A stretch of DNA of 64,000 bases from Flavobacteriales bacterium (GTDB lineage: Bacteria > Bacteroidota > Bacteroidia > Flavobacteriales_G > JALEGO01): contig JAHDCS010000003.1 in the NCBI GenBank assembly GCA_020629755.1, forward strand, positions 9,510 through 73,509, written 5' to 3'. Made by a program: the position numbers and the translations under genes. Shown piece after piece: positions 1 to 62,394 of this stretch. A model generated the notes under the pieces. It was not told the DNA's origin, did no database searches, and saw only the letters and a program-made list of their open reading frames with translations. Each line of letters opens with the position of its first letter. The first letter of the stretch is position 1.

Positions 1-2650
1 GCAACCATCGCCATCAGAATCTCTATCACAAGCATTCACTATACCGTCGTTGTCAACATCATTGTTGCCACTTGAGAAACAAATATTCTGCAACACAAAC
101 ACTGGTTGATTATTCGCATTAACACCTGAAGTATCCGTAAAACTAGATATTGCACTCACCGGAAAATCAAAACAGAACTTCACCATCGCTGATGTATCTA
201 CAAGAGAAAGATCAGAAGAATGTAAAGAAGATATAAACACAGAGTGTGTTGCATCTGTACTTACATTAACCTGTGAACCTTGTGCACATACGTATGGTGT
301 AATATCTGCTATTAAATTACCGCTAGCATCATAAACATCAATGTAAACCTCTTCTTCTACATCCATCTCATATGCATAGAATTCTAAACTATCTGCTACA
401 GGGGTAAATACATACTTAATCGTATCATCCCATGAAGCACCTATTCCAGTAACAGCAGATGTGCCATTTAAAGGTATGTAATTAAATATACCGCTTGAAC
501 CCGCATTTACATCTATTAATGTAAGCGTTCCTTCAGAAAATGTGAACGGCGTTGTGTCATTTGGTAAGTAACTATTATTAGGTAACCCTGTTAACCATTC
601 AGAAATACATCCGCCTCCAGATCCTGCTTCGTCTGTATCTAAAATACCATCGTTGTCATCGTCTAAATCTGCCTTATCACAAACCCCATCATTGTCTTTA
701 TCGGTACTTTCATTGGCATCTGAAGGATCACAATCTACTCCGTTTAAAACACCATCATTATCGCAATCGGCTAATGGATCTAATAGATCGCATATTGGTG
801 CAGCACAGCTATCGCTCTGCATGGTTGAATCTAATGTCATCCCTATCATTTGACCACCAGAAGCTAATGTAGGCACACCGTTAGCATCAACTGATCCTGA
901 AAGTGAACTATCAGACGCTAAATCTGAAAAATTAAACGTGCCCGCTCCCTCTAAAGCATCTGGGCAACCATCGCCATCAGAATCTCTATCACAAGCATTC
1001 ACTATACCGTCGTTGTCATAATCACTATTTGGGCTTTGAAAGCAAACATTTTGCATCATAAATACCGGCTGATTATTTGGGCTTACACCAGAAGTATCTG
1101 TAAAGCTAGCTATCATACTAACAGGAGTATTGATACAAAATGTAGCAGCACCTGAAGTGTCAAGTGTACTTTTGTTCGTGTTATTTGTAGTTGATAGAAA
1201 AGCTGAATGTGAAGGAGCTGTAGAAATATTAACATCTGAACCTTGTTGGCATATATACGGTGTAATATCTGCTATTAAATTGCCGTTGGCGTCGTATACG
1301 TCTAAATATACTTCTTCTTGAATATCCATGTCTAAAACAAAGAAAACAAGACTATCAAGGATGGGCGAAAAGACATATTTAATAGTATCGTCATAAGAAC
1401 CCCCTATTCCAGTTAAAGCATTTCCTAAGTATGGTGTGTAGTTAAATACCCCGCTAGATCCTGGATTTACATCTATAATTTGTATAGTACCTTCTGTTAG
1501 GGTAATATTAGTAGTATCAGAAGGTAGATACGCGTTATTTCCGGCTCCAGTCACCCAATTTACAACACATCCACCACCACTCACTGTTTCATCTGTATCT
1601 AAAATACCATCATTATCATCATCTAAATCAGCATTATCGCATACCCCATCGTTATCTTTATCTCCACTCTCTGTGGCATCTTCAGGATCACAATCTACCC
1701 CATTTAAAACGCCATCATTATCACAATCTGCAAGCGGATCTAGTAGATCACAAGGTGGTGCAATATAACAACTGTCGCCTAATACTGTTGAATCTTGGGC
1801 TGTACCAAAAGCTATCCCTCCAGCAGCAGAAACAGGCACCCCGTTGCCATCAACAGCACCAGCTAAAGAAGAATCTGCAGCATCTAAATCATCGTAATTA
1901 AATATGCCCGCATTTTCAATAGCATCAGGGCAACCATCGCCATCTGCATCTAAATCAAGTGCGTTAACAATACCATCGCCATCTATATCGTTATTCCCTC
2001 CAGAAAAACAAACTGTTTGTAGCATATAAACCGGTTGGTTATTTGCACTTGCTGTTGAAGATGCCGTTACTCCAGTGATGGCACTAATTTCTGTAGTAAT
2101 ACAAAAACGTACGCCAGCTGCAGTATCTGTAGTGGCATAGTTTGATGCATTGGTTGTAGTAACAAGCGCAGAATGCACTGGATCTGTAAGCACGTCTACA
2201 ATAGCACCTTTTTGACATACATAAGGCGTAATGTCTGCGATATGATTGCCGTTTTCATCATAAGCATCAATGTAAATTTCTTCTTCAAAATCAACATCTA
2301 ATATCACAAAATCTAAATTTGATAAATGCGGAATAAAATTATACCGAAGCGTATCATCATAAGTAGCACCAACACCCGTTAAGGCATTGCCGTTCCATGG
2401 ATTATAATTGTAAATCCCCCCAGAATTTACATCTACAATTTGTATTGTTCCCTCACCAAATGGAATGTTGGTGGTGTCATTTGGAAAGTACCCCGAAGGT
2501 AATCCAGTGACCCATGTGGGTAAACATCCACCAGAACCGTAGATTTCATTTATATCTAAAATACCGTCATTGTCATTGTCTAGATCAGAGCCGTTAGCAA
2601 CTCCATCATCATCGCAATCTAAAAGTGGATCAGATAAATTACATTGAGCA
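1..2650 (-). repeat. Tandem ~963-bp intragenic modules (about 3 copies, last truncated by window edge)
   Basis: GCAACCATCGCCATC... recurs at ~1, ~964 and ~1930; bases 1-54 and 964-1017 are essentially identical; the encoded modules share GCxxxWxTG...IQIxDVN...ITPYxCxxG...NNQPVxxxQxxCF. Confidence 0.85.
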
Positions 2651-2727
2651 AAACTACTCTGTGGCAATATAAGCAAAAATGCTACAAACACAAAAAACGA
2701 AAGAGGAGTAAGAATTATTTTTTTCAT
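1..2727 (-). CDS. Secreted modular surface protein with thrombospondin type-3-like Asp-rich repeats (partial, runs off left edge)
   Basis: Manual minus-strand reading: ATG at 2727, MKKIILTPLSFFVFVAFLLILPQSSFAQ signal peptide, then repeated D-x-D-x-D-G runs (DNDNDGILDINE, DDDNDGILDTDE, DGDGCPDA) without stop to base 1. Absent from the ORF track, presumably because it is open at the edge. Confidence 0.85.
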   Translation of the reverse strand, partial: MKKIILTPLSFFVFVAFLLILPQSSFAQCNLSDPLLDCDDDGVANGSDLDNDNDGILDINEIYGSGGCLPTWVTGLPSGYFPNDTTNIPFGEGTIQIVDVNSGGIYNYNPWNGNALTGVGATYDDTLRYNFIPHLSNLDFVILDVDFEEEIYIDAYDENGNHIADITPYVCQKGAIVDVLTDPVHSALVTTTNASNYATTDTAAGVRFCITTEISAITGVTASSTASANNQPVYMLQTVCFSGGNNDIDGDGIVNALDLDADGDGCPDAIENAGIFNYDDLDAADSSLAGAVDGNGVPVSAAGGIAFGTAQDSTVLGDSCYIAPPCDLLDPLADCDNDGVLNGVDCDPEDATESGDKDNDGVCDNADLDDDNDGILDTDETVSGGGCVVNWVTGAGNNAYLPSDTTNITLTEGTIQIIDVNPGSSGVFNYTPYLGNALTGIGGSYDDTIKYVFSPILDSLVFFVLDMDIQEEVYLDVYDANGNLIADITPYICQQGSDVNISTAPSHSAFLSTTNNTNKSTLDTSGAATFCINTPVSMIASFTDTSGVSPNNQPVFMMQNVCFQSPNSDYDNDGIVNACDRDSDGDGCPDALEGAGTFNFSDLASDSSLSGSVDANGVPTLASGGQMIGMTLDSTMQSDSCAAPICDLLDPLADCDNDGVLNGVDCDPSDANESTDKDNDGVCDKADLDDDNDGILDTDEAGSGGGCISEWLTGLPNNSYLPNDTTPFTFSEGTLTLIDVNAGSSGIFNYIPLNGTSAVTGIGASWDDTIKYVFTPVADSLEFYAYEMDVEEEVYIDVYDASGNLIADITPYVCAQGSQVNVSTDATHSVFISSLHSSDLSLVDTSAMVKFCFDFPVSAISSFTDTSGVNANNQPVFVLQNICFSSGNNDVDNDGIVNACDRDSDGDGC
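2414..2421 (-). repeat. Dispersed G6AT motif site 1
   Basis: TTCTGGGGGGATTT on minus. Confidence 0.7.
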
Positions 2728-2880
2728 AAAAAGTATACTTTCAATTTTATCAGTAATCAAAATCCAGAAAACTGAACCGAACTAAAGTAGATATTTTTTA
2801 CAAATACATGCGCATAAAATGTAAAAAAATATTATCTAAACCGCCACTTGATGAAAAACAAAGGTGAACCTGTGTTTTTA

Positions 2881-3603
2881 CTAAGTGAGCCTACTCTTAT
2901 ACATTAATACTGCGTTTTTTAACCCAATGTATAAACTATCTGAAATAAGGGCGTGCCCAATCGACACTTCTTTGAGTTTTTTAAGTTGAGTAGAAAAAAA
3001 CTCTAGATTATCTAAATTTAAATCGTGGCCTGCATTGATTTCTAGTGCTATTTCATGGCATAAATTGGCTGCAGAACAAAATGGTGCGATGGCTTTTTTC
3101 TTATTTTTTAAAAATCCGCGCGCATAACTCTCCGTATAGAGCTCAATTCTATCTGTGCCTATGCGTTTTGCATATTCTATCTTTTTCAGATCACACTCCA
3201 TAAAAATAGAGGTTCTAATGCCTTTGTTTTTGAAATCTAAAATAATATCTCTTAAGAATGATTCGTGTTTAATGGTATTCCAGCCAGCATTTGAGGTGAG
3301 TTGATTAGGTTTGTCAGGCACTAAAGTGACTTGGGTAGGTTTAGTGCTTAAAACTAGCGCAATAAATTTTTTAGAGGGATATCCTTCTATATTAAATTCT
3401 TTATTCGGGAGGATGTTTTTTTTTAGCTGCTTAACATCGCTGTATCTAATATGTCTCTGATCGGGTCTTGGGTGAACTGTAATGCCGTCTGCACCAAAAT
3501 TCTGAATAGCTAGGGCTGCTTTAATTAAATTAGGCACATCACCACCTCTTGCGTTTCTTAAGGTGGCAATCTTATTGATATTTACACTGAGTTTAGTGGG
3601 CAT
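2881..3603 (-). CDS. pdxJ: Pyridoxine 5'-phosphate synthase
   Basis: MPTKLSVNINKIATLRNARGG...GADGITVHPRPDQRHI...RIELYTE...NAGHDLN: PdxJ hallmarks. Confidence 0.95.
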   Translation of the reverse strand: MPTKLSVNINKIATLRNARGGDVPNLIKAALAIQNFGADGITVHPRPDQRHIRYSDVKQLKKNILPNKEFNIEGYPSKKFIALVLSTKPTQVTLVPDKPNQLTSNAGWNTIKHESFLRDIILDFKNKGIRTSIFMECDLKKIEYAKRIGTDRIELYTESYARGFLKNKKKAIAPFCSAANLCHEIALEINAGHDLNLDNLEFFSTQLKKLKEVSIGHALISDSLYIGLKNAVLMYKSRLT

Positions 3604-4504: not shown

Positions 4505-4513
4505 CCCTCCAGT

Positions 4514-5929
4514 TTAAAATTGAAAATAAATGAATTGTGCCCCATCCCCCCTAAAAAATAAACAAAGAATCACCGCAAAAGACACCCAAAGCACATCTAA
4601 ATGATATTTTTTGTTCAAACAGGCAATGTAAAGATGCTTTTTGCGATAATACACCATGACTTCTATTATAATTGCTAAGCCAATAAATACAATATTATTG
4701 ATGTAAAAATTCACACATTTAAGCGGTGTTGATTCATATAAAAACATATGGGCAAAAACGTCATGGGCTTGTTGAATGTTTTCTGCTCTAAAATATACCC
4801 AGCCAATTAATGTCTGAATAAATACAATAGCAATAACCAAACCCTCTATACTGATGCGTTTGTTCCATTTGGTTTGTTTTTCTAACAACAGCCAAAAGGC
4901 ATGTATGGCCCCCCAAGCAATAAATGTATAATTGGCCCCATGCCACAACCCAGAGAGCAGCATAGTTGAAATAGTCGCTAAATAAAATGCCCATTTACCG
5001 TTTTTAGACCCTCCTAATGGGATGTAGACATAATCTCTAAACCAAGTAGAAAGCGAGATGTGCCAGCGTGCCCAAAATTCTTTAAAACTTTTTGAAAGAT
5101 AGGGGTGGTTAAAATTCATCCGAAAATGGTAGCCCATCAGTTTTGCTAAACCCCTGGCAATAGAACTATATCCGCTAAAATCAGCGTAAATTTGAAGGCT
5201 AAACCCAATCATAACCATCCACCAAAATAAGGTGCCGCTATACGGCGCCTTGCCTTCGAACGCACTGTCTACTAAAAAGGCCATATTGTCTGCAATGACT
5301 ACTTTTTGAAACATGCCATAAGCCACTAGTTTTAAGCCATTCCATATTTCAAGTGTATTGGGGATTCTATATTTTGAAAGTTGATCTAAAAAATGCTTCG
5401 CGCGAACAATTGGCCCGGCCACCAATTGCGGAAACATAGAGAGGTAAGCAAAGAAGTGAAAGATGTTTTTAGTGGGCTGTAATTGTTTTTTATAAATATC
5501 AATGGTGTAGCTCATGGATTGAAAAGTATAAAAGCTAATGCCTACAGGTAAAATAAGTGCAAAGTCTGGAATCCTTTCAACCAGCTGGATTGAAACCCCG
5601 AAAAAACCAAATAGGTCTTCAAGCGTTTCTCCAAAAAAGCGGCTGTATTTAAACACCGATAAAGAGCCTAAATTGCCAATTAGTGACAAGATAAGGTACC
5701 TCTTTTTTTTGCCCTGGTTTTCTGAGATATGTATTTTATGGCCACAGTAAAAATCAATAAGCCCACTGCCTATGATTAAAAATAAAAACCGCCAATCCCA
5801 CCAGCCATAAAAAATAAAACTGCAGATAGTTAGATAGATCCACCTGCTGTTGTTTTTTCTTCTGAATATAGGCCAGAAGAGAAAAAACAGAATCCCAAAA
5901 AGAATAAATTCAAGTGAATTAAAAACCAT
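4514..5929 (-). CDS. MBOAT family O-acyltransferase (AlgI/DltB-like)
   Basis: Multi-TM; FYTFQSMSYTIDIY, FPQLVAGPIVRA, FWARWHISLSTWFRDYVYIPLGG, SGLWHGANYTFIAWG. Confidence 0.93.
   Translation of the reverse strand: MVFNSLEFILFGILFFLFWPIFRRKNNSRWIYLTICSFIFYGWWDWRFLFLIIGSGLIDFYCGHKIHISENQGKKKRYLILSLIGNLGSLSVFKYSRFFGETLEDLFGFFGVSIQLVERIPDFALILPVGISFYTFQSMSYTIDIYKKQLQPTKNIFHFFAYLSMFPQLVAGPIVRAKHFLDQLSKYRIPNTLEIWNGLKLVAYGMFQKVVIADNMAFLVDSAFEGKAPYSGTLFWWMVMIGFSLQIYADFSGYSSIARGLAKLMGYHFRMNFNHPYLSKSFKEFWARWHISLSTWFRDYVYIPLGGSKNGKWAFYLATISTMLLSGLWHGANYTFIAWGAIHAFWLLLEKQTKWNKRISIEGLVIAIVFIQTLIGWVYFRAENIQQAHDVFAHMFLYESTPLKCVNFYINNIVFIGLAIIIEVMVYYRKKHLYIACLNKKYHLDVLWVSFAVILCLFFRGDGAQFIYFQF
4544..4551 (-). 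repeat. Dispersed G6AT motif site 2
   Basis: TTTAGGGGGGATGG on minus. Confidence 0.7.
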
Positions 5930-7914: not shown

Positions 7915-8793
7915 TTATGTGTTTGGGGGGATGTAATCCGCAGGTTTTTTGCGTTTCCACCTTCGATGGGTCCACAACCAATACTCTGGAGTTTCCCTAA
8001 TTACTGTTTCTAGTTTTTTAGCATGTGCTTCTGTAATGGCTCCGTAGGATTCTTTGTTGGGATACTCTGTTAAAAGTTCGCAATGAATGTCGTACTGCCC
8101 TCTTGAGGTTTTGATAACTTTACCAAAAATCACTACACAATCGTATTTTTTAGCATAGTGCTCAACGCCAAAAAAAATGGGTGTTTCTCTATTTAAAAAC
8201 TGCATCCAATATGATTTGTAAGGATTAGACGGACATTGATCTGCCAAAAAAATAATGCTAAAGGCTTCATTTGATTTTTCTTTGAAAAGTGCATCAACAC
8301 TTTTGGGGTGCACAAAAATAACACCTGCTTTTGATCTAGAAGCTTTTATTTTTTCATTTAAAAATGGGTTGCTTAAAGGGGTATAGATGCCATGAACCGG
8401 ATGTGTTAGGGCTGCAGGAGTAGAAAAAGCAGAAATCTCCCAATTTCCGTAATGGCCACTCACTAAAATCACCTTCCGTCCTTTTTTGGTATAATGATTT
8501 ACCAGCTCAGGATTAATGACTCTAACTGCTTTTTTTGCCCATGTATCATTTTTAGAAAAACTTTTAATCGCCTCTACCACCAAATCACAAAAATGTCTGT
8601 AAAACCGATCACACAAACGCTGAATGTCTTGTGGTGACTTGTCTGGAAAAGATTTTGTAAGATTCTCTAACACCACTTTTTTTCTATACCCAATAAGCTT
8701 ATAGACTAAAATATACATCCCCCCAGAAATAAAATACAACGCCCTTAAAGGAAGTCTTGAGAGTGGGTAAATAAATAGATAATAGAAAAACAC
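7915..8793 (-). CDS. Lipid A biosynthesis-type (LpxL/HtrB) lysophospholipid acyltransferase
   Basis: LVSGHYGNWE, FLADQCPS, WLWTHRRWK. Confidence 0.88.
   Translation of the reverse strand: MFFYYLFIYPLSRLPLRALYFISGGMYILVYKLIGYRKKVVLENLTKSFPDKSPQDIQRLCDRFYRHFCDLVVEAIKSFSKNDTWAKKAVRVINPELVNHYTKKGRKVILVSGHYGNWEISAFSTPAALTHPVHGIYTPLSNPFLNEKIKASRSKAGVIFVHPKSVDALFKEKSNEAFSIIFLADQCPSNPYKSYWMQFLNRETPIFFGVEHYAKKYDCVVIFGKVIKTSRGQYDIHCELLTEYPNKESYGAITEAHAKKLETVIRETPEYWLWTHRRWKRKKPADYIPPNT
7925..7932 (+). repeat. Dispersed G6AT motif site 3
   Basis: GTTTGGGGGGATGT. Confidence 0.7.
8717..8724 (-). repeat. Dispersed G6AT motif site 4
   Basis: TTCTGGGGGGATGTA on minus. Confidence 0.7.
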
Positions 8794-19313: not shown

Positions 19314-20198
19314 ATGACGTCTAATACACACAAAGCAGGTTTTGTAGCCATAATAGGTAGCCCAAATGCCGGAAAATCTACGCTGTTAAATGCGCTAATC
19401 GGAGAACCTCTAGCAATTTCTACCCCTAAAGCCCAAACAACACGTCATCGCATTTTAGGTATTTTTAATACACATTCTACTCAAATTATATTCTCAGATA
19501 CACCCGGCATAGTAGATCCGAGCTATTTGTTGCATGAAAATATGCACGCTAAAATTGAAGAGTCTATTTCTGATGCCGATGTGGTGATTTATTTGGCTGA
19601 TGGCGATAAAACGCATATCAAATCCCCCCAAATAAAAGAAAAATTAGAGCAGCTTAACTGCCCTTTTTTAGTCGTTATCAATAAAGCAGACCTATTGAAA
19701 GAGGATGAAATTGAAACCCTTAGAGCGCATTGGAATAAAGTATTTCCTAAGGCTGAAGTGCGTGTTATATCAGCCTTACACAACGTACATACTCTTAAGC
19801 TTTTAGAGCGCATCAAAACACTTTTGCCTGAGCACCCGCCTTATTTTTCTAAATCAGAGTTTACAGATAGGTCGTCAAGATTTGTGGTCTCAGAAATCAT
19901 TCGAAAACATATTTTTTTGCTTTATGAAAAAGAAGTGCCTTACGCCTCTCAGGTAGTAGTTGAACGGTTTAAACAAAAAGAAAATCTCTTGAAAATTTGG
20001 GCAGAAATTTACGTAGAGCGAAACACACAAAAAGGCATTATTATTGGTAAGGGGGGTAAAAGTCTTACGGCACTTGGCAAAGCAGCGCGCCTTGAGGTTG
20101 AATCGTTTTTTGAGCAAAACGTTTTTTTAGACATAAAGGTTAAGGTGGCTAAAGACTGGCGCAAAAAAGAAGGAATGCTTAAAAAATTTGGGTACTAG
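19314..20198 (+). CDS. era: GTPase Era
   Basis: GSPNAGKSTLLNALIGE, DTPGI, NKADL, KH domain IIGKGGKSLTALGKAAR. Confidence 0.97.
   Translation: MTSNTHKAGFVAIIGSPNAGKSTLLNALIGEPLAISTPKAQTTRHRILGIFNTHSTQIIFSDTPGIVDPSYLLHENMHAKIEESISDADVVIYLADGDKTHIKSPQIKEKLEQLNCPFLVVINKADLLKEDEIETLRAHWNKVFPKAEVRVISALHNVHTLKLLERIKTLLPEHPPYFSKSEFTDRSSRFVVSEIIRKHIFLLYEKEVPYASQVVVERFKQKENLLKIWAEIYVERNTQKGIIIGKGGKSLTALGKAARLEVESFFEQNVFLDIKVKVAKDWRKKEGMLKKFGY
19622..19629 (-). repeat. Dispersed G6AT motif site 6
   Basis: ATTTGGGGGGATTTG on minus. Confidence 0.7.
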
Positions 20199-30848: not shown

Positions 30849-30856
30849 GGGGGGAT
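30849..30856 (+). repeat. Dispersed G6AT motif site 11 (intergenic)
   Basis: TTTTGGGGGGATGAAA between etfB start and OmpA terminator. Confidence 0.75.
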
Positions 30857-43861: not shown

Positions 43862-43867
43862 CCCCCC
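43860..43867 (-). repeat. Dispersed G6AT motif site 16
   Basis: TTTTCGGGGGGATGTC on minus, overlapping the first in-frame ATG of sprA. Confidence 0.7.
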
Positions 43868-48914: not shown

Positions 48915-51900
48915 TGTCGCTTTCTAAACGATTAGTCTATTCTATTCTATTCTTTTTAATAGGATTAGCTTTGTTTTTTTGCGCTAGTCATTTAAAAAAT
49001 AATTATCAAGAAAACGCGCATAAAAACACCAAAGAGAATTTTCAATTAGCGCTTCATAAAGCTGAGCAATCATTAGAAGACAATCTTTTAAAACAAGACT
49101 TCTCGCAATTACAAAAACACCAAGACTATAGCTATTATTTGTATGTGCGCGATACCCTTAAGCGTTGGACAAGCCATCTTGTGCCAATTGATCCTATTAT
49201 AAAACCATCGAGCTACAGTAAAATTTGTTTTTTAAAAAACGGGTGGTATTTGTCATCTGTTAAACACTTTAATGACTCTACTCTTGTTGGGTTATTTAAA
49301 ATAAAATCTGAATATCCTTTTGAAAACGACTATTTACAAAATGATTTTTCAGTGCTTTTAGATCATCAAAATATTTTTGATATCGCCATTGAAAAACCAA
49401 ATAACAAACCTGTTTTTACCCTATATACCCTTAATAAGACAGGTGCTTTTTATTTAATTCCTAAAAACATCCCCCCTTTAAATAAACTATTAATCATTGA
49501 TGTTTTAGCGCTATTGTGCATTTGTTTTTCATTATGGATAGGATTTGGTGTTTTATGTTCTAAGCCCCTAAGTAGTATACTTGTGTTTTTAAGCCTTCTG
49601 GTTTTTAGAGGCGTGAGTCTTTTGTATTACAGATATCCAGAAGCATTTTCTTCATTAGATTTTTTTCAAAACACAAACCCGCAAAGTATTATAAATCAGA
49701 CTCTTGGAGATTACTTAATCAACAATTCTCTTTTTATTTTATTGGTTTGGATTTTTTATTGGGCTTTCAGGGATGTTAAAAAATATACTTGGTTTATCCT
49801 CTTTATAGTTATAAGTATTTTTAGCATTTCTTTTTATCAGGTTTATGATGGATTTGGGTTTGAGCATGTGCCCCTAAATCCTTCAGATGTGTCATTGTTT
49901 TCGTTTTATAGCATTTTAGTATACATCTCTTTTGGCGCTTTATTGCTTTTGCCATGGGTGTTTATTAAAAACATAGACGCTTTAAAATCACATCGTTTTT
50001 CTTTAGGTGTTAAATTATTAGTACTTGTATTTATAATATGTCCCTTTTTTTTTCACAACCTTTTTATTGTTGTGTTCTCTTGTATTGGCGTGGTGGGATG
50101 TCTGTTTTTTACTTCTTCTTTTCACAACATAAAAGAGCGTGTAAACAGAAGTTTAATTTACTTAGTTATTGTCGCCTTTTTTGGGTCTTTTTTTATTGCT
50201 ATTATCTCTGAACAAAAAAAAGCATTGCGCGTTGATACGCTCTCTAAAAACCTTTCTATAAATAAAGATTTAAGTTTAGAATATAATATTGAAAACTATT
50301 ACTCTGCCATTCAAGCCTACACGAACGAAACCTTATTTGAGTACGAAAAACAAGATCTTTCTATAAAAGAATACGTGTCGTATATCTCTGATTTATACTT
50401 TTCAAAATTTTTAACAAAATACGATTTAAACGTGTTTGTTTTTGAGAAAAAAGAACCCGTGTTTTCTTCACTAACACTAAGTAAAAGTTGGGGGGATTTA
50501 GAAAAAATAAAAACAGAAGGCATTCAAAATAAAAACCTCCCGTTTTTATACAACACACACAACTCTTCAGATCAACAAGAATATATCTTAGATCTCTACG
50601 CTCCTAAAGGGGCTGTAAATGCCTTTGAAGTATCGATTAGTTTTAGTTTAAAATCAAATAAAGAATTAATCGGATACCCCGTTCTTTTAAGCGAAGCTGC
50701 CAGCAATACTATTGGGGGATCCACTTATGATTTTGCACATTACAAAAACGGGATGCTTTCTTATAAAAAAGGTGATTTTAGATTTCCAAACCAACTTTCT
50801 TCTTTAAAGAAGATAACACATAAATCTAATACTTTCAATGTTTTTACCTCCAAAGAAAAAACCACTGTGATCTATACTAAAAAGAAGACTCTTCGATGGT
50901 TTATTCAATGTTTTTCAGTTTTACTTTTCTTTTTGATTTTATCGGGTTTTTTGTTTTATAGAAATACCATTTTTAGCTTAAATACATTTTCTTCTTGGTC
51001 TTTGTCTTATAAGTTTCAAATCACGCTTATTTTATTGTTATTTATCTCTGTGATAACCATTGGGGTGGGCACTTACTTTACAACAAAAAAGGCATTTGAC
51101 GACCAAAACACTTTACTTTTAGAGGATAAATTACGCTCGATTTTATTTGAGGTAGAATACAAATTGTCTAAAAAAACGAGCCAAGATATAAATACCCAAA
51201 ATGCGTATGTTGAAAAAATATTAAACAAGTTCTCTAATGTTTTTTATTCTGATATTACTCTATTTGATAAATCTGGTAGTTTAACCGCATCTTCAGCGTC
51301 TTCTCTTTTCAATAGAGGTATTCTTTCAAAAAAAATACACCCCGATGCCTATGAAGATTTATTAAAAAATGAGTACGCCTCAGTGATTCATTTAGAACAC
51401 CTAGGGCGCCTGTCTTTTTTGTCTGCTTATTGCCCCGTGTATAATGCTAAAAATGAAATGTTGGGGTATTTACACCTTCCGTACTTTGTAAAACAAAAAG
51501 ACTTTGAACAACGTTGGGGAGCGTTTTTATCGGGTCTTTTAAATATTTATTCTTTACTTCTTTTTGCTTTAATTGTGGTCTCTATTTTTCTAAGTAGCTA
51601 TTTAACGAAGCCTTTAAGAAAATTAAGATTGATGCTTCAGAATATAGAGATTAACAGTGAAGATCAAACCCTAAAATATGACGGTGAAAATGAAATTGGC
51701 AAGTTAGCCAAAGCCTACAATACTAAAGTAATTGAACTAAAAGAACAATCTAAAAAACTTGCTGAAACTCAAAAACAAATGGCTTGGAAAGAAATGGCGA
51801 AACAAGTGGCACACGAAATCAAAAACCCCTTAACGCCAATGAAACTCTCTACCCAACATTTACTTATGAGTTTACAAACTAAAGACACTAAAAATAAAGA

Positions 51901-52435
51901 AAAACTTCAAGCATATACGCAAAGAATGATTGACCAAATAGACGTATTAAGTTCTATTGCTTCAGAATTTTCTGATTTTGCTTCAATGCCCTCTATGCAA
52001 TTAGATTCTGAAAATTTAAGTCTTATTTTAAAAGATATTATTAGACTAAACACCCCTTTGTTATCTCATATAGATGTACAAGAAAATATTCACTTGGCTA
52101 ACAATATTAAATGTGATAAAAATCAAATGATAAGAGTCTTTCAAAATCTTCTTAAGAATGCGATCGAGGCTTTAAGTGAAACTGCAAATGCTCAATTAAT
52201 TCTTAGACTTGAAAAACAAAAAAATCAGGCTTATTTTTCAATCACCGACAATGGCATTGGCATCCCCCCAGACATTCAGACCAAAATATTTACTCCAAAT
52301 TTTACCACTAAAAGCAAAGGAAAGGGTCTTGGGCTCGCGATGTGTAAAAAAATTATTGACGCCCACAAGGGTGAGATTGGCTTTCAGAGTGAAAAAAATA
52401 AGACGGTTTTTTATTTTACTCTACCTTTGAGCTAG
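48914..52435 (+). CDS. Large multi-TM sensor histidine kinase (NtrY-like architecture)
   Basis: Many TMs; HAMP-like linker; WKEMAKQVAHEIKNPLTPMKLSTQHL H-box; FSITDNGIGIPPDIQ; GLGLAMCKKIIDAHKG. Confidence 0.92.
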   Translation: MSLSKRLVYSILFFLIGLALFFCASHLKNNYQENAHKNTKENFQLALHKAEQSLEDNLLKQDFSQLQKHQDYSYYLYVRDTLKRWTSHLVPIDPIIKPSSYSKICFLKNGWYLSSVKHFNDSTLVGLFKIKSEYPFENDYLQNDFSVLLDHQNIFDIAIEKPNNKPVFTLYTLNKTGAFYLIPKNIPPLNKLLIIDVLALLCICFSLWIGFGVLCSKPLSSILVFLSLLVFRGVSLLYYRYPEAFSSLDFFQNTNPQSIINQTLGDYLINNSLFILLVWIFYWAFRDVKKYTWFILFIVISIFSISFYQVYDGFGFEHVPLNPSDVSLFSFYSILVYISFGALLLLPWVFIKNIDALKSHRFSLGVKLLVLVFIICPFFFHNLFIVVFSCIGVVGCLFFTSSFHNIKERVNRSLIYLVIVAFFGSFFIAIISEQKKALRVDTLSKNLSINKDLSLEYNIENYYSAIQAYTNETLFEYEKQDLSIKEYVSYISDLYFSKFLTKYDLNVFVFEKKEPVFSSLTLSKSWGDLEKIKTEGIQNKNLPFLYNTHNSSDQQEYILDLYAPKGAVNAFEVSISFSLKSNKELIGYPVLLSEAASNTIGGSTYDFAHYKNGMLSYKKGDFRFPNQLSSLKKITHKSNTFNVFTSKEKTTVIYTKKKTLRWFIQCFSVLLFFLILSGFLFYRNTIFSLNTFSSWSLSYKFQITLILLLFISVITIGVGTYFTTKKAFDDQNTLLLEDKLRSILFEVEYKLSKKTSQDINTQNAYVEKILNKFSNVFYSDITLFDKSGSLTASSASSLFNRGILSKKIHPDAYEDLLKNEYASVIHLEHLGRLSFLSAYCPVYNAKNEMLGYLHLPYFVKQKDFEQRWGAFLSGLLNIYSLLLFALIVVSIFLSSYLTKPLRKLRLMLQNIEINSEDQTLKYDGENEIGKLAKAYNTKVIELKEQSKKLAETQKQMAWKEMAKQVAHEIKNPLTPMKLSTQHLLMSLQTKDTKNKEKLQAYTQRMIDQIDVLSSIASEFSDFASMPSMQLDSENLSLILKDIIRLNTPLLSHIDVQENIHLANNIKCDKNQMIRVFQNLLKNAIEALSETANAQLILRLEKQKNQAYFSITDNGIGIPPDIQTKIFTPNFTTKSKGKGLGLAMCKKIIDAHKGEIGFQSEKNKTVFYFTLPLS
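49469..49476 (-). repeat. Dispersed G6AT motif site 17
   Basis: TAAAGGGGGGATGTT on minus. Confidence 0.7.
50490..50497 (+). repeat. Dispersed G6AT motif site 18
   Basis: AGTTGGGGGGATTTAG. Confidence 0.7.
52262..52269 (-). repeat. Dispersed G6AT motif site 19
   Basis: GTCTGGGGGGATGCC on minus. Confidence 0.7.
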
Positions 52436-52447: not shown

Positions 52448-54493
52448 ATGATTTTAGATAATTATGTATGTGGATCTTGGGTAAAAAGCTCAGGAAAAGG
52501 GGTTGCTCTTTTTAATTCGGTAACGGGTGAGCATATTGCCACGAGTAACACCAAAAATATTGATTTTAAAAAGGCCTTAGATTATGGCCGTAAAACAGGG
52601 GGTAGTGCTCTTCGAAAAATGACCTTTCATCAGCGCGGACGAATGCTAAAAGCGCTTGCCTTACATTTACATAAGCACAAAGAAAAGTTTTACCCTATCA
52701 GTTATAGTACTGGTGCTACACGCATTGATTCATGGATTGATATTGAGGGCGGTATTGGTAATTTATTTGCCAATGCATCCTTACGGCGTAAATTACCTAA
52801 TACCTCCTTTTATTTAGATGGCGAATACGCACCAATGTCAAAAACAGGTTCGTTTATTGGCCACCATTTAATGGTGCCAAAACAAGGGGTGGCGCTACAT
52901 ATTAATGCGTACAATTTTCCGATTTGGGGGATGCTTGAAAAAATAGCCGTAAATCTTTTAGCTGGTGTTCCGGCTGTGGTTAAACCTGCAACTGTAACCA
53001 GTTTTTTGACCCACGCAATGGTAAAAGAAATTATTTCTTCAAAAATTTTACCCAAAGGAGCCCTTCAGCTTATTTGTGGGTCTGCGGGAGATATTTTAGA
53101 CCATGTTATGGAGCAAGATGTAGTCACGTTTACAGGCTCTGCTTCTACTGGGCAAAAACTCAAAAGCCATCCTTCTATTATTGCAAATGCCGTTCCGTTT
53201 AACATGGAGGCTGATTCTTTAAATAGTTCTGTTTTAGGGGAGGATGCTAAGCCGGGCACTGAAGAATTTGATTTATTTATCAAAGAAGTCGCTAAAGAAA
53301 TCACTATAAAATGTGGGCAAAAATGTACCGCCATCAGGCGGATACTGGTGCCTAAAAAACATATTGATCAGGTGCAAAAAGCCCTGAGTGAAAAACTAGA
53401 AAAAACCACTGTTGGTAATCCTGAGTTAAAAGAAGTACGTATGGGGGCTTTGGCGGGCAAAGAGCAGCTTAAAGACGTTGTTTCAAATGTTAAAAAACTA
53501 TTAAAGCATTCTGAGCTTGTGAGTGGAGATTTAGCAAAAGTTGAAGTGCTTGGAGCTAGTAAAACAAAAGGTGCTTTTCTATCGCCAATGCTTTTAAGAA
53601 ATGACAAGCCTTTTACCCGCACATCCACCCATAATATTGAAGCCTTTGGCCCAGTAAGTACACTGATTCCTTATAAAACACTAGATGAAGCTATTGAAAT
53701 TACAAAAATGGGCTTAGGTTCTTTGTGTGCTTCTATTGTGACCAATGATGCTAAAATTGCACGTGATTTTACGCTTGGTGCAGCCAGTTATCATGGGCGG
53801 ATTTTAACCTTAAACAGAGAGTGTGCCAAAGAAAGTACAGGACATGGCTCGCCTATGCCTCTTTTGGTTCATGGCGGACCTGGGCGTGCTGGTGGCGGTG
53901 AAGAAATGGGCGGACTACGTGGTATTAAACACTATATGCAACGCACAGCCATTCAAGGGTCTCCTTCTATGATTGCAGCTATATCTGATGTTTATCAAAT
54001 AGGTGCTAAACAAAGCTATCCGGTTAAACATTTGTTTCAAAAATATTTTGAGGAACTTAAAATTGGTGAAACGTATATTACCCATAAGCATACCATTACA
54101 GATGCTGATATTGTAAATTTTGCCAATGTAAGTGGTGATCATTTTTATGCCCATACCGATGAAACTTCTTTAGAGGGTACTATCTTTGAGAGACGAGTAG
54201 CACATGGATATTACTTGTTAAGTAAAGCGGCGGGTATGTTTGTTGATCCAAGAAAAGGGCCGGTGCTTTTAAACTATGGCATAGATGAAGCGCGTTTTAC
54301 TAAGCCAGTCTATCCAGGAACAACCATTGGCGTACGTTTAACAGTCAAAGAAAAAATAGCGGGCGAGAAAAAAGATGTTGATGATATCTTAAAAGGCATT
54401 GTTAAATTTCAAGTAGAAATATACGATCAAGACAATGAAACAGTTGCTTTGGCTACTATTTTAACCATGGTAAAAAACAAAAAACAAGGCTAA
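52448..54493 (+). CDS. paaZ: Oxepin-CoA hydrolase / 3-oxo-5,6-dehydrosuberyl-CoA semialdehyde dehydrogenase (bifunctional)
   Basis: ALDH domain (VTFTGSASTGQKL, IKCGQKCTAIRRILVP) fused to C-terminal MaoC-like hydratase (HTITDADIVNFANVSGDHFYAHTD). Confidence 0.93.
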   Translation: MILDNYVCGSWVKSSGKGVALFNSVTGEHIATSNTKNIDFKKALDYGRKTGGSALRKMTFHQRGRMLKALALHLHKHKEKFYPISYSTGATRIDSWIDIEGGIGNLFANASLRRKLPNTSFYLDGEYAPMSKTGSFIGHHLMVPKQGVALHINAYNFPIWGMLEKIAVNLLAGVPAVVKPATVTSFLTHAMVKEIISSKILPKGALQLICGSAGDILDHVMEQDVVTFTGSASTGQKLKSHPSIIANAVPFNMEADSLNSSVLGEDAKPGTEEFDLFIKEVAKEITIKCGQKCTAIRRILVPKKHIDQVQKALSEKLEKTTVGNPELKEVRMGALAGKEQLKDVVSNVKKLLKHSELVSGDLAKVEVLGASKTKGAFLSPMLLRNDKPFTRTSTHNIEAFGPVSTLIPYKTLDEAIEITKMGLGSLCASIVTNDAKIARDFTLGAASYHGRILTLNRECAKESTGHGSPMPLLVHGGPGRAGGGEEMGGLRGIKHYMQRTAIQGSPSMIAAISDVYQIGAKQSYPVKHLFQKYFEELKIGETYITHKHTITDADIVNFANVSGDHFYAHTDETSLEGTIFERRVAHGYYLLSKAAGMFVDPRKGPVLLNYGIDEARFTKPVYPGTTIGVRLTVKEKIAGEKKDVDDILKGIVKFQVEIYDQDNETVALATILTMVKNKKQG

Positions 54494-55086: not shown

Positions 55087-56458
55087 AGTCGTTTAATTCT
55101 TTAATGGGCGTAAGTAAGCTTTCTATATTCTCTAAATTAAACTCTTTTTTGAGTAAATAAAAATCGTACTTCTGTTTCTTAAAATCATCAATACTGATTT
55201 GATGATCTCTGTATAAATAACCCATTAATTGCCAGTTTGATAGATCTGGCACATCAACACCAATGCTTTGATTTGAAAGATGATTGCCGATATGGGCTAC
55301 ATTTTCTAAAAGAAGATGGTCGCGCATTGGTTTTTTATAGAAAAAAACATGTGCGGATATAGAGATGAAAAATAGAAAAAGTGCAGGCCATTTTATATTC
55401 TTTTGTGTTATGGCATCTAAAATCTTTTTGACTCTACTTTCTAAAAGAATAGCCAAAGAAATTGAAAGCATAAAAAAGGCTGGCGCAATATAAAACCCTC
55501 TTTGTTTTAAGGTAACCATTATTGGAAATACGGCTGATAATGTGATGCTAAAAAACACAAGCGCCCATTTTTTTCTAATATTATATCTATTATCAGTCAC
55601 ATTGGGTGGTTTTTTAACCCACCAAATTATTAATGCGACAATGAACATGGGCAGCGCTTTTTCTATAAAAACTTTAATAATATAGAGGCGGGTTTGAACC
55701 GTCTGCACTTCTATGGCAGAGGTGAGAAGTTGTTTGTTTACATAAGCTAAAGTATACGTCCATCCCTTTGAAGGAAATAAATATATTAGAATAAAAGGCA
55801 GAAACACCCCCACAGATTGTACAAGTATTCTCGCTGTATTTTTTTTATATTCTTTAAAATATAAGGCGTGCCAAAAAAAGAAACAGAGCGGAAATAATCC
55901 GACTGGGCCTTTTGAAAAAACAGATAAAAACAATGCTACTCCTGAGAAAAACGGATACATAACATAATCCTCTTTTTTTACAGCCAATACAGAAAAATAA
56001 ATAGAGAGTAAGGCAAATAAAATAGTTGGTATTTCAAGTAGGTTGTTTGAATACAACCAGTACAACGGAAAATAAAAAAGTAATAAAAAAAACGGAAGCA
56101 CTGCTTTTATCAGTTTTATCTGAAGTACCTCCGCGTATATTCGAGCAACCAAATAAAAACTTAAACCCCCTAATACAATCCCGTATATCCGATCCACCCA
56201 AAAATAATTACCAAATACTTTATAAAACAAGGCATGCACCCAAATTGAAAAAGGAAGGTGCTCATAAAACTCTTTAAATAGCGTATTAGATAATTTTAAT
56301 TGCCATAAGCTATTGTATTCTGTAGCTAAGTTTTTTGCAATTGCGGCATACCACAATCCATCCATAAACATCCCATCAGAAAGTAACGTAGGGGCGCAAA
56401 TAAGTATGAATATTGACGCTAAAAAAAACCAAATGTATTTATCGTTTTTAGTGTGCAT
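55064..56458 (-). CDS. Glycosyltransferase family 39-like (ArnT-type) membrane protein
   Basis: Multi-TM; MDGLWYAAIAKNLATEYNSLW, YEHLPFSIWVHALFYKVFG, SKGPVGLFPL. Confidence 0.82.
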   Translation of the reverse strand: MHTKNDKYIWFFLASIFILICAPTLLSDGMFMDGLWYAAIAKNLATEYNSLWQLKLSNTLFKEFYEHLPFSIWVHALFYKVFGNYFWVDRIYGIVLGGLSFYLVARIYAEVLQIKLIKAVLPFFLLLFYFPLYWLYSNNLLEIPTILFALLSIYFSVLAVKKEDYVMYPFFSGVALFLSVFSKGPVGLFPLCFFFWHALYFKEYKKNTARILVQSVGVFLPFILIYLFPSKGWTYTLAYVNKQLLTSAIEVQTVQTRLYIIKVFIEKALPMFIVALIIWWVKKPPNVTDNRYNIRKKWALVFFSITLSAVFPIMVTLKQRGFYIAPAFFMLSISLAILLESRVKKILDAITQKNIKWPALFLFFISISAHVFFYKKPMRDHLLLENVAHIGNHLSNQSIGVDVPDLSNWQLMGYLYRDHQISIDDFKKQKYDFYLLKKEFNLENIESLLTPIKELNDYVLYTSK

Positions 56459-57633: not shown

Positions 57634-60600
57634 AAATCAAGCTCAATAGATAAATAATTAATGGGGTTAAGAAAATCACCATTTTCAATCCCCCAGGCTC
57701 TATCAAACTTCACAAAATACCCAAATACTTTTGTACGTAACCCCCAACCAACAGAGGCTGCAATTGGATGTACTTGATTTTTTAAAATCACTTCTATGTT
57801 TCCATTTGTAATGGTTTGAGTGTTAAAGGCATTTTCTTCTGAAAATGGACTCACGCCATTCCAGGCAGTACCTATATCAGAAAATCCAATGATTTGAAAA
57901 TGGTTAAAAAACTCTGACTTTATAGGGTTTTTAGCAAAGTATTGTACCACTGGCCACCTTAACTCTGAATTAATTAAAGCAAAATTGTTGCCGTTTCTGG
58001 CATTTTGTAAAAATCCGCGCAACGGCGGTACAATGGTTTGAAAATAATACCCTGCATCTTGCGCAATAGGCGTTTGAAAATTAAAACTTGAATTGCCGTT
58101 AAATCTAGCCCATCTTTCTACGGCTCCTAAGTAATGAACCAATTTACGAGAGCCAAAACTGCTCGATGCCGATAATCTATTGAACCAAATAAGTTTTCTA
58201 TGGATTTTTAATCCGTTTCTAGCATCTATACCTACAACTGAAAAATCTGTTTCAGCCTCTGTGACAATTCTGTAGTGCTCTGCAAACAACTTAATTTTAG
58301 AGCCTTCGTATAAATTAAGGCCCCTGTCTAATGAGTTGTCAAAAATACTCGTGAATTTTAATGCCCCCCAGTAATTGGTAACACTGGGCTCAGCTGCCGT
58401 AATAGGATCAGTCGATAAATAAGTGCCTCTATCCACCCGAATCATTGGCGTAATGTGGGTAGAAAACACTTCATTAAATGGATATGAAAACCGTGCTTTT
58501 AACACTTGGGTGACGGTTTTGAATTGCACATTAAATAAAGAAGATATAGGTGCTTGGGTCACAGAAACCTGGCGCTGAAAACTGTATTTTTTATCCCAAC
58601 GTTTGCTTCTGTCTTCAAGCGACACAAAAAATTCAGTGACACTGCCGCTAATGCCATACCGAAGGCCTCCGGTTGCTAAATAATTTTCAAATAAATCTGT
58701 CATGTTTATTTTTAACACTACCCCCATTCCTGGCATAGTGTATGGCCCACCGTTATAGAGTTGATAAATCTGATTGGCAAAATTAAAATCCATACTAGAG
58801 GTAATTTCGCTGGCTATAAAATTGAGTTTATAGCGTCTTGATTTTGGCGTAAAAACAGATTGTTTTAAAGACTCTACACCTGAACTATCTTTGTTAAAAG
58901 TTGGTTTAGCCATGTTTTGGTCTAAGAAAACATACGCATCTGTAGAGATGTAATCTATTGGTTTTTTTTCTGCCACACTTATCTGAGAAGGCAGTGTAAT
59001 AAGGTTGTTTTTTGAAGAGAAATTCTCTGGTGTTTTAACCCCTTGAGATGGTTGTAAATCAGGGATAGAAATTGTGTCTGATTTATTGTAATACAAAAGA
59101 TTAAATCTCGATTTTTTATAAAATAAATCTGAGGCTAAGGCTTGATTGGTTGAAAAATCATAGTCTTGTAAATTTGAGTAGGCACTTGGTAACGGGGTTT
59201 TATTAATGAAAAATTGATAATGCACGGCTGTATCAATATTGGTGATCACAGAATCTGTAGTTGCAATATACTTTTGATTCACCCCACCAGTATTAATGGT
59301 AAAGGTTAAACGATCCCTGTCAAATGATTTTAAATTTTTAAACGAAACCTCATCGTCAAATGTGATTTTATTCATTTGGGGCTGATTAGAAAGATCGTAT
59401 GCATAAAGCGCATAATGCTCTTTAGGAGAAAACGCTTTTGGCTGAAGACTATCTGTTGGTCTATTAGACGAAAAGATAAGTGTTTTGTCTTCTATAATGT
59501 GTAAAGAAAGATCGTCGTATTTATCATTGGTAATGTGTTTTTGAGTGTTGCCTGTAATTCTATATAAAAACAAGTCAGATTGGCTGTTTTTTACAGCAGA
59601 CAAGACCATTTTTTTTCCTTTATCAAAGTAAGAAAAGTCTTTGACCTGGCTTATTTCAAATAAGGGTTTTTCTGTTGGTTTATCGCCATTTACAAAATAG
59701 TTATGGAGCATGGGTTGCCCTTCTTTGTTATATATAACGGTAAGCATTTTCGAAGACGGGTGCCATTTAAACACAGGATAATCGTCGCTGGTCTCTCTTT
59801 CTAAGCGAAAACCTTGTTTAAATACCTTTGTTTTTTTGTTCTTATCTATATCGTATACTATAACTTTTAGTTTACCTAAATCGTTTTCTGAATATGCCAA
59901 GTGTTTCGCGTTTGGAGAGAGGGCGATGTTTTGATATATTTTTCTTTTTTTTAGTTTTATTTGTTTTTGATTTTGGAGGGATAAGGGGGGATTCTCTTCG
60001 GTTTTTATATTGAAGGATTTTTCATAATAGGTAATCATCTGGTTTTTTAACACATTGAATTTAGCACCCAAAACAGATTCTAGACCAGATTCTACGCTTC
60101 TGGTAGCTTTGGTTAAATACAAAATATTAGGGATTAAATTTTCGCCATATTGATACGCAATATAGTGCCAAAAGGCATGCCCAAAAACGGTGTTGTCTAA
60201 CGGAGTAAAATCATTTGTTCTTTTATATCTTTTGCTTTGAATGGCATCTTTGATCATAGGTAGGGTCTCAGATATGGGTCTGGTAAAATAGTGTGTGAGG
60301 CCCTTTACATACCAATCTGGAATGGTGATAAATGCATCATTTTTTATTCTATCAATCCAGTTTTCACCATACAACATTTGATGAAGAAAGATTTGCAGAA
60401 TCCCTGATTTTATATTTCGAATAAATTTTTCTCTTTCTCCTTCGTAATATACAAATACATTTTTTCCATAAATCCGAGCCACCCCACCTATGCTTTGTGT
60501 TTCGCTCTGTAAGCCAATATTGCTTTTTTTGAAATCTTCAATATTATTATAAACCAATATATTAAACTTGTCTTTCGGGTCTAGATAAATTTCAAACTTC

Positions 60601-60836
60601 TCGCTGTACTCTTCAATGGCCTTATCTGCCGTAGAGATTACATCCCCCCAAAGATTTTCAGAGCCTTCATAAAAATACATTTTATAATGTTCGTACTTTT
60701 TAAATTCCCAGAAATAGTCTTCGGTCTGAATTCTGTTTTTGCCATAGGTCATAGAAGAAGATCCATTGTAGAATTGCGCAAACCCTAAGTATGAAACAAG
60801 AAACAAGAAGCAAAATATGAAAAGTGCCTTTTTCAC
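57630..60836 (-). CDS. TolB-like beta-propeller protein with C-terminal outer-membrane beta-barrel
   Basis: GTG-initiated signal peptide (KKALFIFCFLFLVSYLGFAQ), propeller segments, C-terminal barrel ending YLSIELDF. The listed ORF start at 60980 is antisense to a tRNA and is rejected. Confidence 0.8.
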   Translation of the reverse strand: MKKALFIFCFLFLVSYLGFAQFYNGSSSMTYGKNRIQTEDYFWEFKKYEHYKMYFYEGSENLWGDVISTADKAIEEYSEKFEIYLDPKDKFNILVYNNIEDFKKSNIGLQSETQSIGGVARIYGKNVFVYYEGEREKFIRNIKSGILQIFLHQMLYGENWIDRIKNDAFITIPDWYVKGLTHYFTRPISETLPMIKDAIQSKRYKRTNDFTPLDNTVFGHAFWHYIAYQYGENLIPNILYLTKATRSVESGLESVLGAKFNVLKNQMITYYEKSFNIKTEENPPLSLQNQKQIKLKKRKIYQNIALSPNAKHLAYSENDLGKLKVIVYDIDKNKKTKVFKQGFRLERETSDDYPVFKWHPSSKMLTVIYNKEGQPMLHNYFVNGDKPTEKPLFEISQVKDFSYFDKGKKMVLSAVKNSQSDLFLYRITGNTQKHITNDKYDDLSLHIIEDKTLIFSSNRPTDSLQPKAFSPKEHYALYAYDLSNQPQMNKITFDDEVSFKNLKSFDRDRLTFTINTGGVNQKYIATTDSVITNIDTAVHYQFFINKTPLPSAYSNLQDYDFSTNQALASDLFYKKSRFNLLYYNKSDTISIPDLQPSQGVKTPENFSSKNNLITLPSQISVAEKKPIDYISTDAYVFLDQNMAKPTFNKDSSGVESLKQSVFTPKSRRYKLNFIASEITSSMDFNFANQIYQLYNGGPYTMPGMGVVLKINMTDLFENYLATGGLRYGISGSVTEFFVSLEDRSKRWDKKYSFQRQVSVTQAPISSLFNVQFKTVTQVLKARFSYPFNEVFSTHITPMIRVDRGTYLSTDPITAAEPSVTNYWGALKFTSIFDNSLDRGLNLYEGSKIKLFAEHYRIVTEAETDFSVVGIDARNGLKIHRKLIWFNRLSASSSFGSRKLVHYLGAVERWARFNGNSSFNFQTPIAQDAGYYFQTIVPPLRGFLQNARNGNNFALINSELRWPVVQYFAKNPIKSEFFNHFQIIGFSDIGTAWNGVSPFSEENAFNTQTITNGNIEVILKNQVHPIAASVGWGLRTKVFGYFVKFDRAWGIENGDFLNPINYLSIELDF
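59985..59992 (+). repeat. Dispersed G6AT motif site 20
   Basis: TTTTGGAGGGATAAGGGGGGATTC: degenerate copy plus perfect core in tandem. Confidence 0.7.
60642..60649 (-). repeat. Dispersed G6AT motif site 21
   Basis: CTTTGGGGGGATGTAA on minus. Confidence 0.7.
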
Positions 60837-60900: not shown

Positions 60901-60909
60901 GCTTTTGAT

Positions 60910-60980: not shown

Positions 60981-60984
60981 CTTT

Positions 60985-61018
60985 AAGGTAACTGGTTAAA
61001 CTGGTTACCTTTTTTTAT
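60985..61018 (+). terminator. Intrinsic terminator after tRNA-Gln
   Basis: AAGGTAAC-tggttaaactg-GTTACCTTTTTTT. Confidence 0.75.
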
Positions 61019-61033
61019 TTTTGATAAAAAAAG

Positions 61034-61753
61034 ATGCGTTATTTCTGTTTTATTTCTTTAAGTGCTCTGTTATTTTCGTGTAACCTGCTCAGAAATTGTG
61101 AAAATGAGACCGGTGAACCCATTACTAAATCTTTTGATGTTGAAGTTATTGAAAGTATTGACGTGCAGATAGCCTCAAAAGTTTCTGTAACACAAGGCAT
61201 GAATCCTAAAATTATTGTAACCGCTTCTCCTAATGTATTGTCGGCATTATCTAAAGAGGTGTCTTCTGGACACTGGGAAGCTCGTTTTTCAGAAGGTTGT
61301 TTTTCTGACTACAGTTTAGAAATTGAAATACAAACCCCTAAAATTAGTGCACTTGAAGTTTCTGGAAGTGCACAAATAGTTTTAGGTGATTTTATCAATC
61401 AAGACGACTTAAGTATAGAAGTAAGCGGATCTGGTAAAGTGTCGATAGGGGCCTTTTCTGGTACTGACTACATTTATATTGGAGTTTCTGGAAGTGGTGC
61501 TATTTTAGCTCAAAAACCCTTTACAGATTTAGAAGATGTAGAACTTGAAATTTCTGGCTCTGGCAAAATTGATGCCTCTAAATTAAAAACAGAAAATGGG
61601 CAAATTGAAGTCTCCGGTTCAGGTGTGTGTAAAGTGTGGGCAACAGATGATTTAGAAGTTGATATTTCTGGCTCTGGAAAAGTCTATTACACCGGAAATC
61701 CTCAGATTAGTTTAGATAAATCTGGCTCAGGAAAACTTATAGACGATAACTAG
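61034..61753 (+). CDS. Head-GIN/DUF2807 domain lipoprotein with ISGSGK repeats
   Basis: Lipobox LLFSCNLLRNC; repeated xSGSGK/xSGSGx motifs of a putative auto-transporter adhesin-like beta-helix. Confidence 0.9.
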   Translation: MRYFCFISLSALLFSCNLLRNCENETGEPITKSFDVEVIESIDVQIASKVSVTQGMNPKIIVTASPNVLSALSKEVSSGHWEARFSEGCFSDYSLEIEIQTPKISALEVSGSAQIVLGDFINQDDLSIEVSGSGKVSIGAFSGTDYIYIGVSGSGAILAQKPFTDLEDVELEISGSGKIDASKLKTENGQIEVSGSGVCKVWATDDLEVDISGSGKVYYTGNPQISLDKSGSGKLIDDN

Positions 61754-61755
61754 TT

Positions 61756-62394
61756 TTGAAGAAGGCTTCAGGTGTTTTTATTGGCTTATTTTTTCTTTTT
61801 TCGGGTCTAGATCTTTTAAGTTGTTTAAATATATTTGATCTTAGATGGTTTTCAAAACCCTTTTTACTGCCCTTACTAATGGGCTTATACCTTATTGAAT
61901 CGCCAAAGAAAAACCCTTTGTTTTTAGCCGCTCTTTTTTGTGCGTTTATGGGGGATGTGATTTTGCTCTTAGAGAATCAACATTCGTTTTTAATTGGGCT
62001 GCTTTGTTTTTTAACCATGCAAATTCTTTATTCTGTAGTGTTTTATAAACAAACTGCTCTTTTTCTAATGCGCGATAAAATGGCGCTTTTTTTGATTTCT
62101 ATTTTTGTTATAGCGTGTTTATCGGTTATGGTACCTCATGCAGGCGCCATGAAAATGCCGCTTATTATTTATGCCTTGATCTTTGGGGGGATGGCTATAA
62201 TTGCACACTGGCGCCATAAAAAACTAAAGGGTTGGTTAATGGTGTTTATAGGCGTACTATTTTTTGTGTGTTCAGACGCTCTTTTAGGAATAAATAAGTT
62301 TGTAGCGGTTTTTTCAAAAGCCAATTTTTGGATTATGTTCACCTATATTATTGGGCAATTTATGATTGTAAAGGGGTATCTAAAATCAGAATAA
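61756..62394 (+). CDS. Lysoplasmalogenase (YhhN/TMEM86 family), TTG start
   Basis: Multi-TM; FCAFMGDVILLLE, FFVCSDALLGINKF. Confidence 0.85.
   Translation: MKKASGVFIGLFFLFSGLDLLSCLNIFDLRWFSKPFLLPLLMGLYLIESPKKNPLFLAALFCAFMGDVILLLENQHSFLIGLLCFLTMQILYSVVFYKQTALFLMRDKMALFLISIFVIACLSVMVPHAGAMKMPLIIYALIFGGMAIIAHWRHKKLKGWLMVFIGVLFFVCSDALLGINKFVAVFSKANFWIMFTYIIGQFMIVKGYLKSE
62185..62192 (+). repeat. Dispersed G6AT motif site 22
   Basis: CTTTGGGGGGATGGC. Confidence 0.7.

Follow-up and report, generated by a model that had tools for sequence, protein, structure and literature searches.

Why does one G-rich word, GGGGGGAT, recur on both strands of a 64,000-nucleotide stretch of a Flavobacteriales bacterium genome (contig JAHDCS010000003.1, positions 9,510 to 73,509; this whole stretch is hereafter the window)? 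A preliminary description made from the letters of the window had proposed a dispersed functional motif, closer to an uptake sequence or binding site than to a polar Chi hotspot or FtsK-orienting polar sequence (KOPS). Genome-wide enrichment and the lack of strand polarity support that proposal. That description had not recognised the word, and we likewise found no account in the open library of papers searched of this word or of any Bacteroidota uptake motif. In our judgement the motif is probably a DNA-uptake sequence through which a naturally transformable Flavobacteriales species recognises its own DNA. To our knowledge, the only families in which uptake sequences are firmly established are Neisseriaceae and Pasteurellaceae, which both have type IV pili. 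New here are a T-tract reaching 17 bases upstream of the core, a second dialect within the genus, a map of tolerant and strict core positions, and a Riemerella-type gene set without a pilus secretin.

The genome under study (G000; 2.36 Mb or 2,363,385 bases in 92 contigs, the window being part of contig C88) contains 732 copies of GGGGGGAT, 367 forward and 365 reverse, or one per 3.2 kb (0.31 per kb); the reversed-word control gave 75 copies and is not ideal, because TAGGGGGG includes a stop codon. Under a first-order model in a 1.01-Mb set of stretches from this genome, also used for site anatomy and the tolerance map, GGGGGGAT occurred 310 times against 11.0 expected (28x), TTGGGGGGATG 93 times against 0.29 (323x) and TTTGGGGGGATG 77 times against 0.11 (700x); enrichment thus climbs as the word is extended, the behaviour expected of a true binding site. 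In a 685-kb sample, GGGGGGAT and its extensions ranked top among over-represented 8- and 9-mers under Markov models of orders 1 to 3. Genome-wide, the sites showed neither counts near expectation nor confinement to one gene family or frame, the two outcomes that the preliminary description had named as speaking against a dispersed motif.

Within the window, all 22 cores were recovered where they had been reported, none displaced, and the strand split was indeed 11/11. Dinucleotide-preserving shuffles of the window gave 0.78 +/- 0.86 copies (maximum 3), in line with the earlier estimate of fewer than one. Its remaining counts proved exact: 27 runs of at least six G with AT directly after 22 of them, two runs of eight G among the cores, T before the run in 17 of 22 sites and G after the AT in 14 of 22. 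The 15-mer TTTTGGGGGGATGTT that it had put forward holds as a consensus (28 matches with at most three mismatches against 3.0 expected) and not as a literal repeat, there being a single perfect copy in the window (11445-11459).

Could the word be a by-product, whether of preferred codons or dipeptides, of a mobile repeat, of biased mutation or of faulty assembly? Sense sites do somewhat outnumber antisense sites, as glycine-glycine codons would give, but synonymous codon shuffling, which preserves proteins and codon use and had also been suggested as a check, reduced the 115 sense and 74 antisense genic sites of the 685-kb sample to 9.8 and 2.6, or about 12 of 189. The sense excess is therefore smaller than proteins alone would predict, and since the excess of GGGGGGAT is lost on shuffling, proteins do not explain the word, as had been argued from the many genes and frames in which it lies. 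Outside the span from -17 to +9, the aligned sites are close to background and hence give no sign of a copied repeat, one-base neighbours at core positions 5-8 are unenriched, and an independent assembly, that of the congener, shows a differing dialect. These tests refute the versions that invoke proteins, codons or a repeat, and we consider the by-product explanation as a whole highly improbable.

Aligned sites define the unit as a T-tract followed by GGGGGGATG: the upstream flank is T-rich between -17 and -1, most strongly so at -3, where 77% of the sites have T, and G is preferred at +8 after the core (60%). The tolerance map, computed in T-rich upstream context, separates two kinds of position. 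Substitutions in GGAT (core positions 5-8) were found at 0 to 2.4x expectation, and A at position 3, A or T at position 4, and T at position 1 reached 22 to 28x, 22 to 28x and 14x, respectively. The notation that suits the word best is therefore T-tract-GGNNGGAT(G), with a preference for GGGG at places one to four; the variant cores have the same T-tract as GGGGGGAT sites. At positions 5-8, GGGGGAAT and GGGGGGAA were seen below expectation.

The sole congener available for comparison (G001; ~70% identity in alignable DNA) uses a different dialect, TTGGGTGGAT/G, likewise with a T peak at -3. In a 308-kb sample of it, GGGTGGAT and GGGTGGAG were preceded by TT and GGGGGGAT was absent; the whole genome holds 467 copies of GGGTGGAT (246+221) against 19 reversed controls, and 11 of GGGGGGAT. 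Among 149 reciprocal-best gene pairs, 42 GGGGGGAT sites fell in aligned codons, 38 of them ungapped, and at these 38 the congener carried GGGGGGAT in none (1.4 expected), GGGTGGAT in 3 (0.23 expected, p = 0.0015) and GGGTGGAG in 1. Since GGGTGGAT and GGGTGGAG occur at orthologous GGGGGGAT positions, the two words are most simply read, for two species of a single genus, as dialects of one system that changed at a tolerant position: the differences fall at the two tolerant core bases, and the common GGAT core is strict. GGGGGGAT was found at comparable density in 0 of 100 relatives.

Distribution along the genome bears on two further explanations. Intergenic DNA holds 8.2% of GGGGGGAT sites and makes up 8.6% of the sequence. 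Exact cores are spaced more evenly than random (coefficient of variation, CV, 0.817 against 0.955 +/- 0.053; 0 of 1000 simulations as low), and degenerate cores are not (CV 0.997 against 0.972). Such even spacing on both strands, in genic and intergenic DNA in proportion, with a distinct core that has tolerant positions, would also suit an abundant chromosomal protein of nucleoid, segregation or condensation type whose sites are spread over the chromosome. For a core chromosome protein, however, it would be unusual for the word to differ within a genus and to be unenriched in 100 other relatives, and the FtsK-, MatS-, Noc- and ParS-type sites known to us have a polarity, are confined to a region or number only tens per genome, against 700 here; we hold this explanation to be quite improbable.

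The main alternative is a Chi-type signal, in which AddB would read single-stranded, G-rich GGGGGGAT at a break, attenuating the nuclease and loading RecA, and the AddB of the congener would read GGGTGGAT. Chi sites are short and polar, occur frequently, are often rich in G and are usually enriched on the leading strand. Like the Chi sites of AddAB and RecBCD, the present word is a G-rich octamer recurring roughly every 3-5 kb, the observed one per 3.2 kb being a Chi-like density, and the cognate enzyme is at hand: a search for competence genes and AddAB, as had been suggested, found AddA-type (G000:C3) and AddB-type (G000:C21) nuclease-domain proteins beside ComEC and DprA. The same two types occur in nearly all relatives searched (RecBCD lay outside the search). 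Polarity was not seen. Orientation showed no bias with respect to local GC skew (165 against 145, p = 0.28), and neighbouring sites lay on the same strand 107 times and on opposite strands 143 times, with no strand domains; an E. coli-like 75:25 bias would predict about 62.5% same-strand neighbours and was rejected (p = 3e-10). As the neighbour test is independent of origin position, it excludes a strong replichore bias. AddAB is moreover conserved across the order and the word is not; it turns over quickly and changes within a genus. We know of no Chi feature resembling a 17-base T-tract outside the core, and the 28- to 700-fold enrichment exceeds the values for Chi known to us. A Chi function is therefore in our view unlikely.

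These observations fit a DNA-uptake sequence better. The word matches known uptake sequences in its balance between strands, its regular spacing and its extreme enrichment, as well as in having a strict inner core, a T flank on one side only and dialects that differ between species; over-representation goes beyond both composition and codons, and the word spreads through coding and intergenic DNA on both strands. The uptake sequences (DUS) of Neisseriaceae occur in dialects that all keep a strict CTG inner core, with up to 5918 copies in 2.4 Mb (PMC3630211). The present motif shares with them the short word, a copy number in the range of hundreds to thousands and species dialects around a strict inner core. 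It differs in sequence and phylum, in its lower density (0.31 per kb), in its one-sided 17-base T-tract and in arrangement, since no inverted terminator-like pairs were seen (close pairs, <120 bp, all point in the same direction). The uptake signal sequences (USS) of Haemophilus and other Pasteurellaceae combine a strict core with an A/T-rich flank on one side and are evenly spaced, and in all this they resemble the present motif, as they do in lying in coding and non-coding DNA and in having lineage-specific variants; their core is AAGTGCGGT, unlike GGGGGGATG. A phage link was considered and rejected, TTTTTGGGGGGATG being present as a single copy per viral contig among the matches listed.

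The machinery separates the present genome from both known systems. Of the 46 genomes searched, 14 had a secretin (PF00263), and G000, G001 and G002 were not among them, which makes a type IV pilus or type II route unlikely; a ComP/type IV pilus route as in Neisseriaceae is probably absent. The pilus/secretin uptake route of Neisseria and Haemophilus describes the machinery of known systems, not the sequence class. The genome encodes ComEC, DprA, an HHH protein and a NamZ_N/DUF1343 protein, together with Bacteroidota-type proteins (SecDF of the PRK13024 type, SprA and Por secretion tails). In Riemerella anatipestifer, transformation requires ComEC, DprA, HHH, DUF1343 and an adjacent outer-membrane/DUF5689 gene pair, and no pilus genes were among those identified as essential (PMC8459023). 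Most gene types of that system (ComEC, DprA, ComF, RecA, HHH, DUF1343, outer-membrane, DUF5689) are present here, ComF not being among those searched, and, as in Riemerella, an outer-membrane barrel gene lies immediately upstream of a DUF5689 lipoprotein gene (PMC8459023). On contig C81, a nuclease gene is divergent from the barrel gene, which is followed by the DUF5689/choice-of-anchor-J lipoprotein gene and then by genes for a type IX secretion system (T9SS)-tailed protein with an ExeM-like domain and for a second nuclease. The barrel has a weak TonB plug match, in its orthologues, and no Pfam family at gathering level. The order is conserved across Bacteroidota, with the DUF5689 gene accompanying the barrel gene in 69 of 80 loci; L241:5812-13706 is one conserved Bacteroidota locus, in which the TonB-receptor-like barrel and the DUF5689 lipoprotein are encoded along with two nucleases and the ExeM-like T9SS protein. 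A sequence search for solved homologues of the barrel and the lipoprotein gave no real one. A fold search with the lipoprotein model (predicted local distance difference test, pLDDT, 89.9) matched carbohydrate-binding jelly-roll folds and Eph ligand-binding folds; these matches seem to come from the C-terminal choice-of-anchor-J domain of the lipoprotein, and none gave a lead to DNA binding. In R. anatipestifer, tonB mutants transform less, which the authors ascribe in part to iron (PMC8383284). R. columbina favours self DNA; no motif was found there, and a published k-mer count gave only A/T-rich words (PMC7965970). No uptake motif is known in Riemerella.

For an uptake system, we envisage that a surface or periplasmic receptor, for which the barrel-DUF5689 locus is, by analogy, a candidate site, would bind double-stranded DNA bearing the T-tract and GGNNGGAT, and that tagged DNA would preferentially cross the outer membrane. 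Passage through ComEC would convert it to single strand, which DprA and RecA would recombine. Biased uptake and recombination would let the word build up in both orientations, evenly spaced, in any tolerant gene, and a receptor that came to prefer other letters at the two tolerant core bases would give the sister species its dialect.

Several points weigh against an uptake function. The organism is uncultured, and the role of the word in uptake is inferred. A balance of mutation and drive might leave a cloud of one-mismatch remnants, and none was found at strict positions 5-8 in the 1.01-Mb set. ComEC, DprA, HHH and NamZ are widespread families, common elsewhere, so their presence is weak evidence for transformation; the link to the Riemerella genes is drawn from domains and gene order rather than from direct sequence comparison. 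The barrel-DUF5689 locus is common in Bacteroidota (479 barrel loci) and does not predict the motif, the sampled carriers G003 and G009 being without a comparable word; a locus so much commoner than the motif can lend weight to a role and not prove one.

Table 1. Sites of the motif and its variants in the window (positions are those of the window)
Position	Strand	Feature	Basis
2414..2421	-	GGGGGGAT core	word match
4544..4551	-	GGGGGGAT core (ATG)	word match
7925..7932	+	GGGGGGAT core, T-tract, G at +8; close to ends of convergent open reading frames	word match
8717..8724	-	GGGGGGAT core (ATG)	word match
11445..11459	+	sole perfect TTTTGGGGGGATGTT of the window, core 11449-11456	consensus match
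19622..19629	-	GGGGGGAT core, T-tract	word match
20380..20387	+	GGGGGGAT core	word match
22529..22543	+	TTTTGGGGGGATGTC, 1 mismatch to consensus, core 22533-22540	consensus match
23552..23559	-	GGGGGGAT core	word match
27666..27680	+	ATTTGGGGGGATGTT, 1 mismatch to consensus, core 27670-27677	consensus match
30849..30856	+	GGGGGGAT core, T-tract	word match
34717..34731	+	TTTTGGGGGGATTTT, 1 mismatch to consensus, core 34721-34728	consensus match
35223..35230	+	GGGGGGAT core (ATGTT)	word match
35946..35953	-	GGGGGGAT core within G8 run	word match
40995..41002	-	GGGGGGAT core within G8 run	word match
43860..43867	-	GGGGGGAT core, T-tract (ATG)	word match
49469..49476	-	GGGGGGAT core (ATGTT)	word match
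50490..50497	+	GGGGGGAT core	word match
52262..52269	-	GGGGGGAT core (ATG)	word match
59985..59992	+	GGGGGGAT core, 2 bases past variant core GGAGGGAT (59975-59982)	word match
60642..60649	-	GGGGGGAT core (ATG)	word match
62185..62192	+	GGGGGGAT core (ATG)	word match
3407..3414	+	variant core GGGAGGAT, T-tract (ATGTT)	variant match
12188..12195	+	variant core GGAGGGAT, T-tract (ATG)	variant match
36323..36337	+	variant TTTTGGGTGGATGTT: congener dialect core, rest perfect consensus	consensus and variant match
53623..53630	-	variant core GGGTGGAT, T-tract	variant match
56192..56199	-	variant core GGGTGGAT, T-tract	variant match

Other genomes gave a scatter of further words. No comparable word was found in samples of G002, G003, G005, G006 and G009; GGAGGA-like words in G002 and a TTGCCGGATG-like word in G043 are weak and uncertain candidates. 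In the G043 sample (L242-L247), TGCCGGAT occurred 24 times against 2.0 (order 1) or 6.4 (order 3) expected, which may reflect a weaker dispersed word or codon use. In many Bacteroidota GGGTGGAT slightly exceeds its reversed control; since that control contains a TAG stop, the excess was not taken as function. Among Flavobacteriales barrel-gene loci, a TTACGAGTTAC-type word is very frequent in L271:1-18513 and also in L266 and L332, with 14 copies of GTAACTCGTA in the 18.5 kb of L271 against 0.02 expected; these may be intergenic or tandem repeats. GACGTCGTCC, ACATTAACAC and GTAACGGTGA, from L307, L315 and L272, each occur 7-14 times in one locus and are possibly coding or tandem repeats.

More broadly, and tentatively, Bacteroidota may have their own secretin-independent class of uptake sequences, read by a TonB-dependent-receptor-like outer-membrane barrel with a DUF5689 lipoprotein, in which dialects arising from receptor changes at two core bases would isolate sister species genetically. 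Should the word instead act as Chi, that would also be useful, as we know of no earlier Chi candidate for a Bacteroidota AddAB. If it is an uptake sequence, the occurrence of so clear a motif, with dialects, where no pilus secretin is encoded would mean that uptake sequences evolved independently, and it would offer a first handle on how Bacteroidota choose DNA, making the receptor findable.

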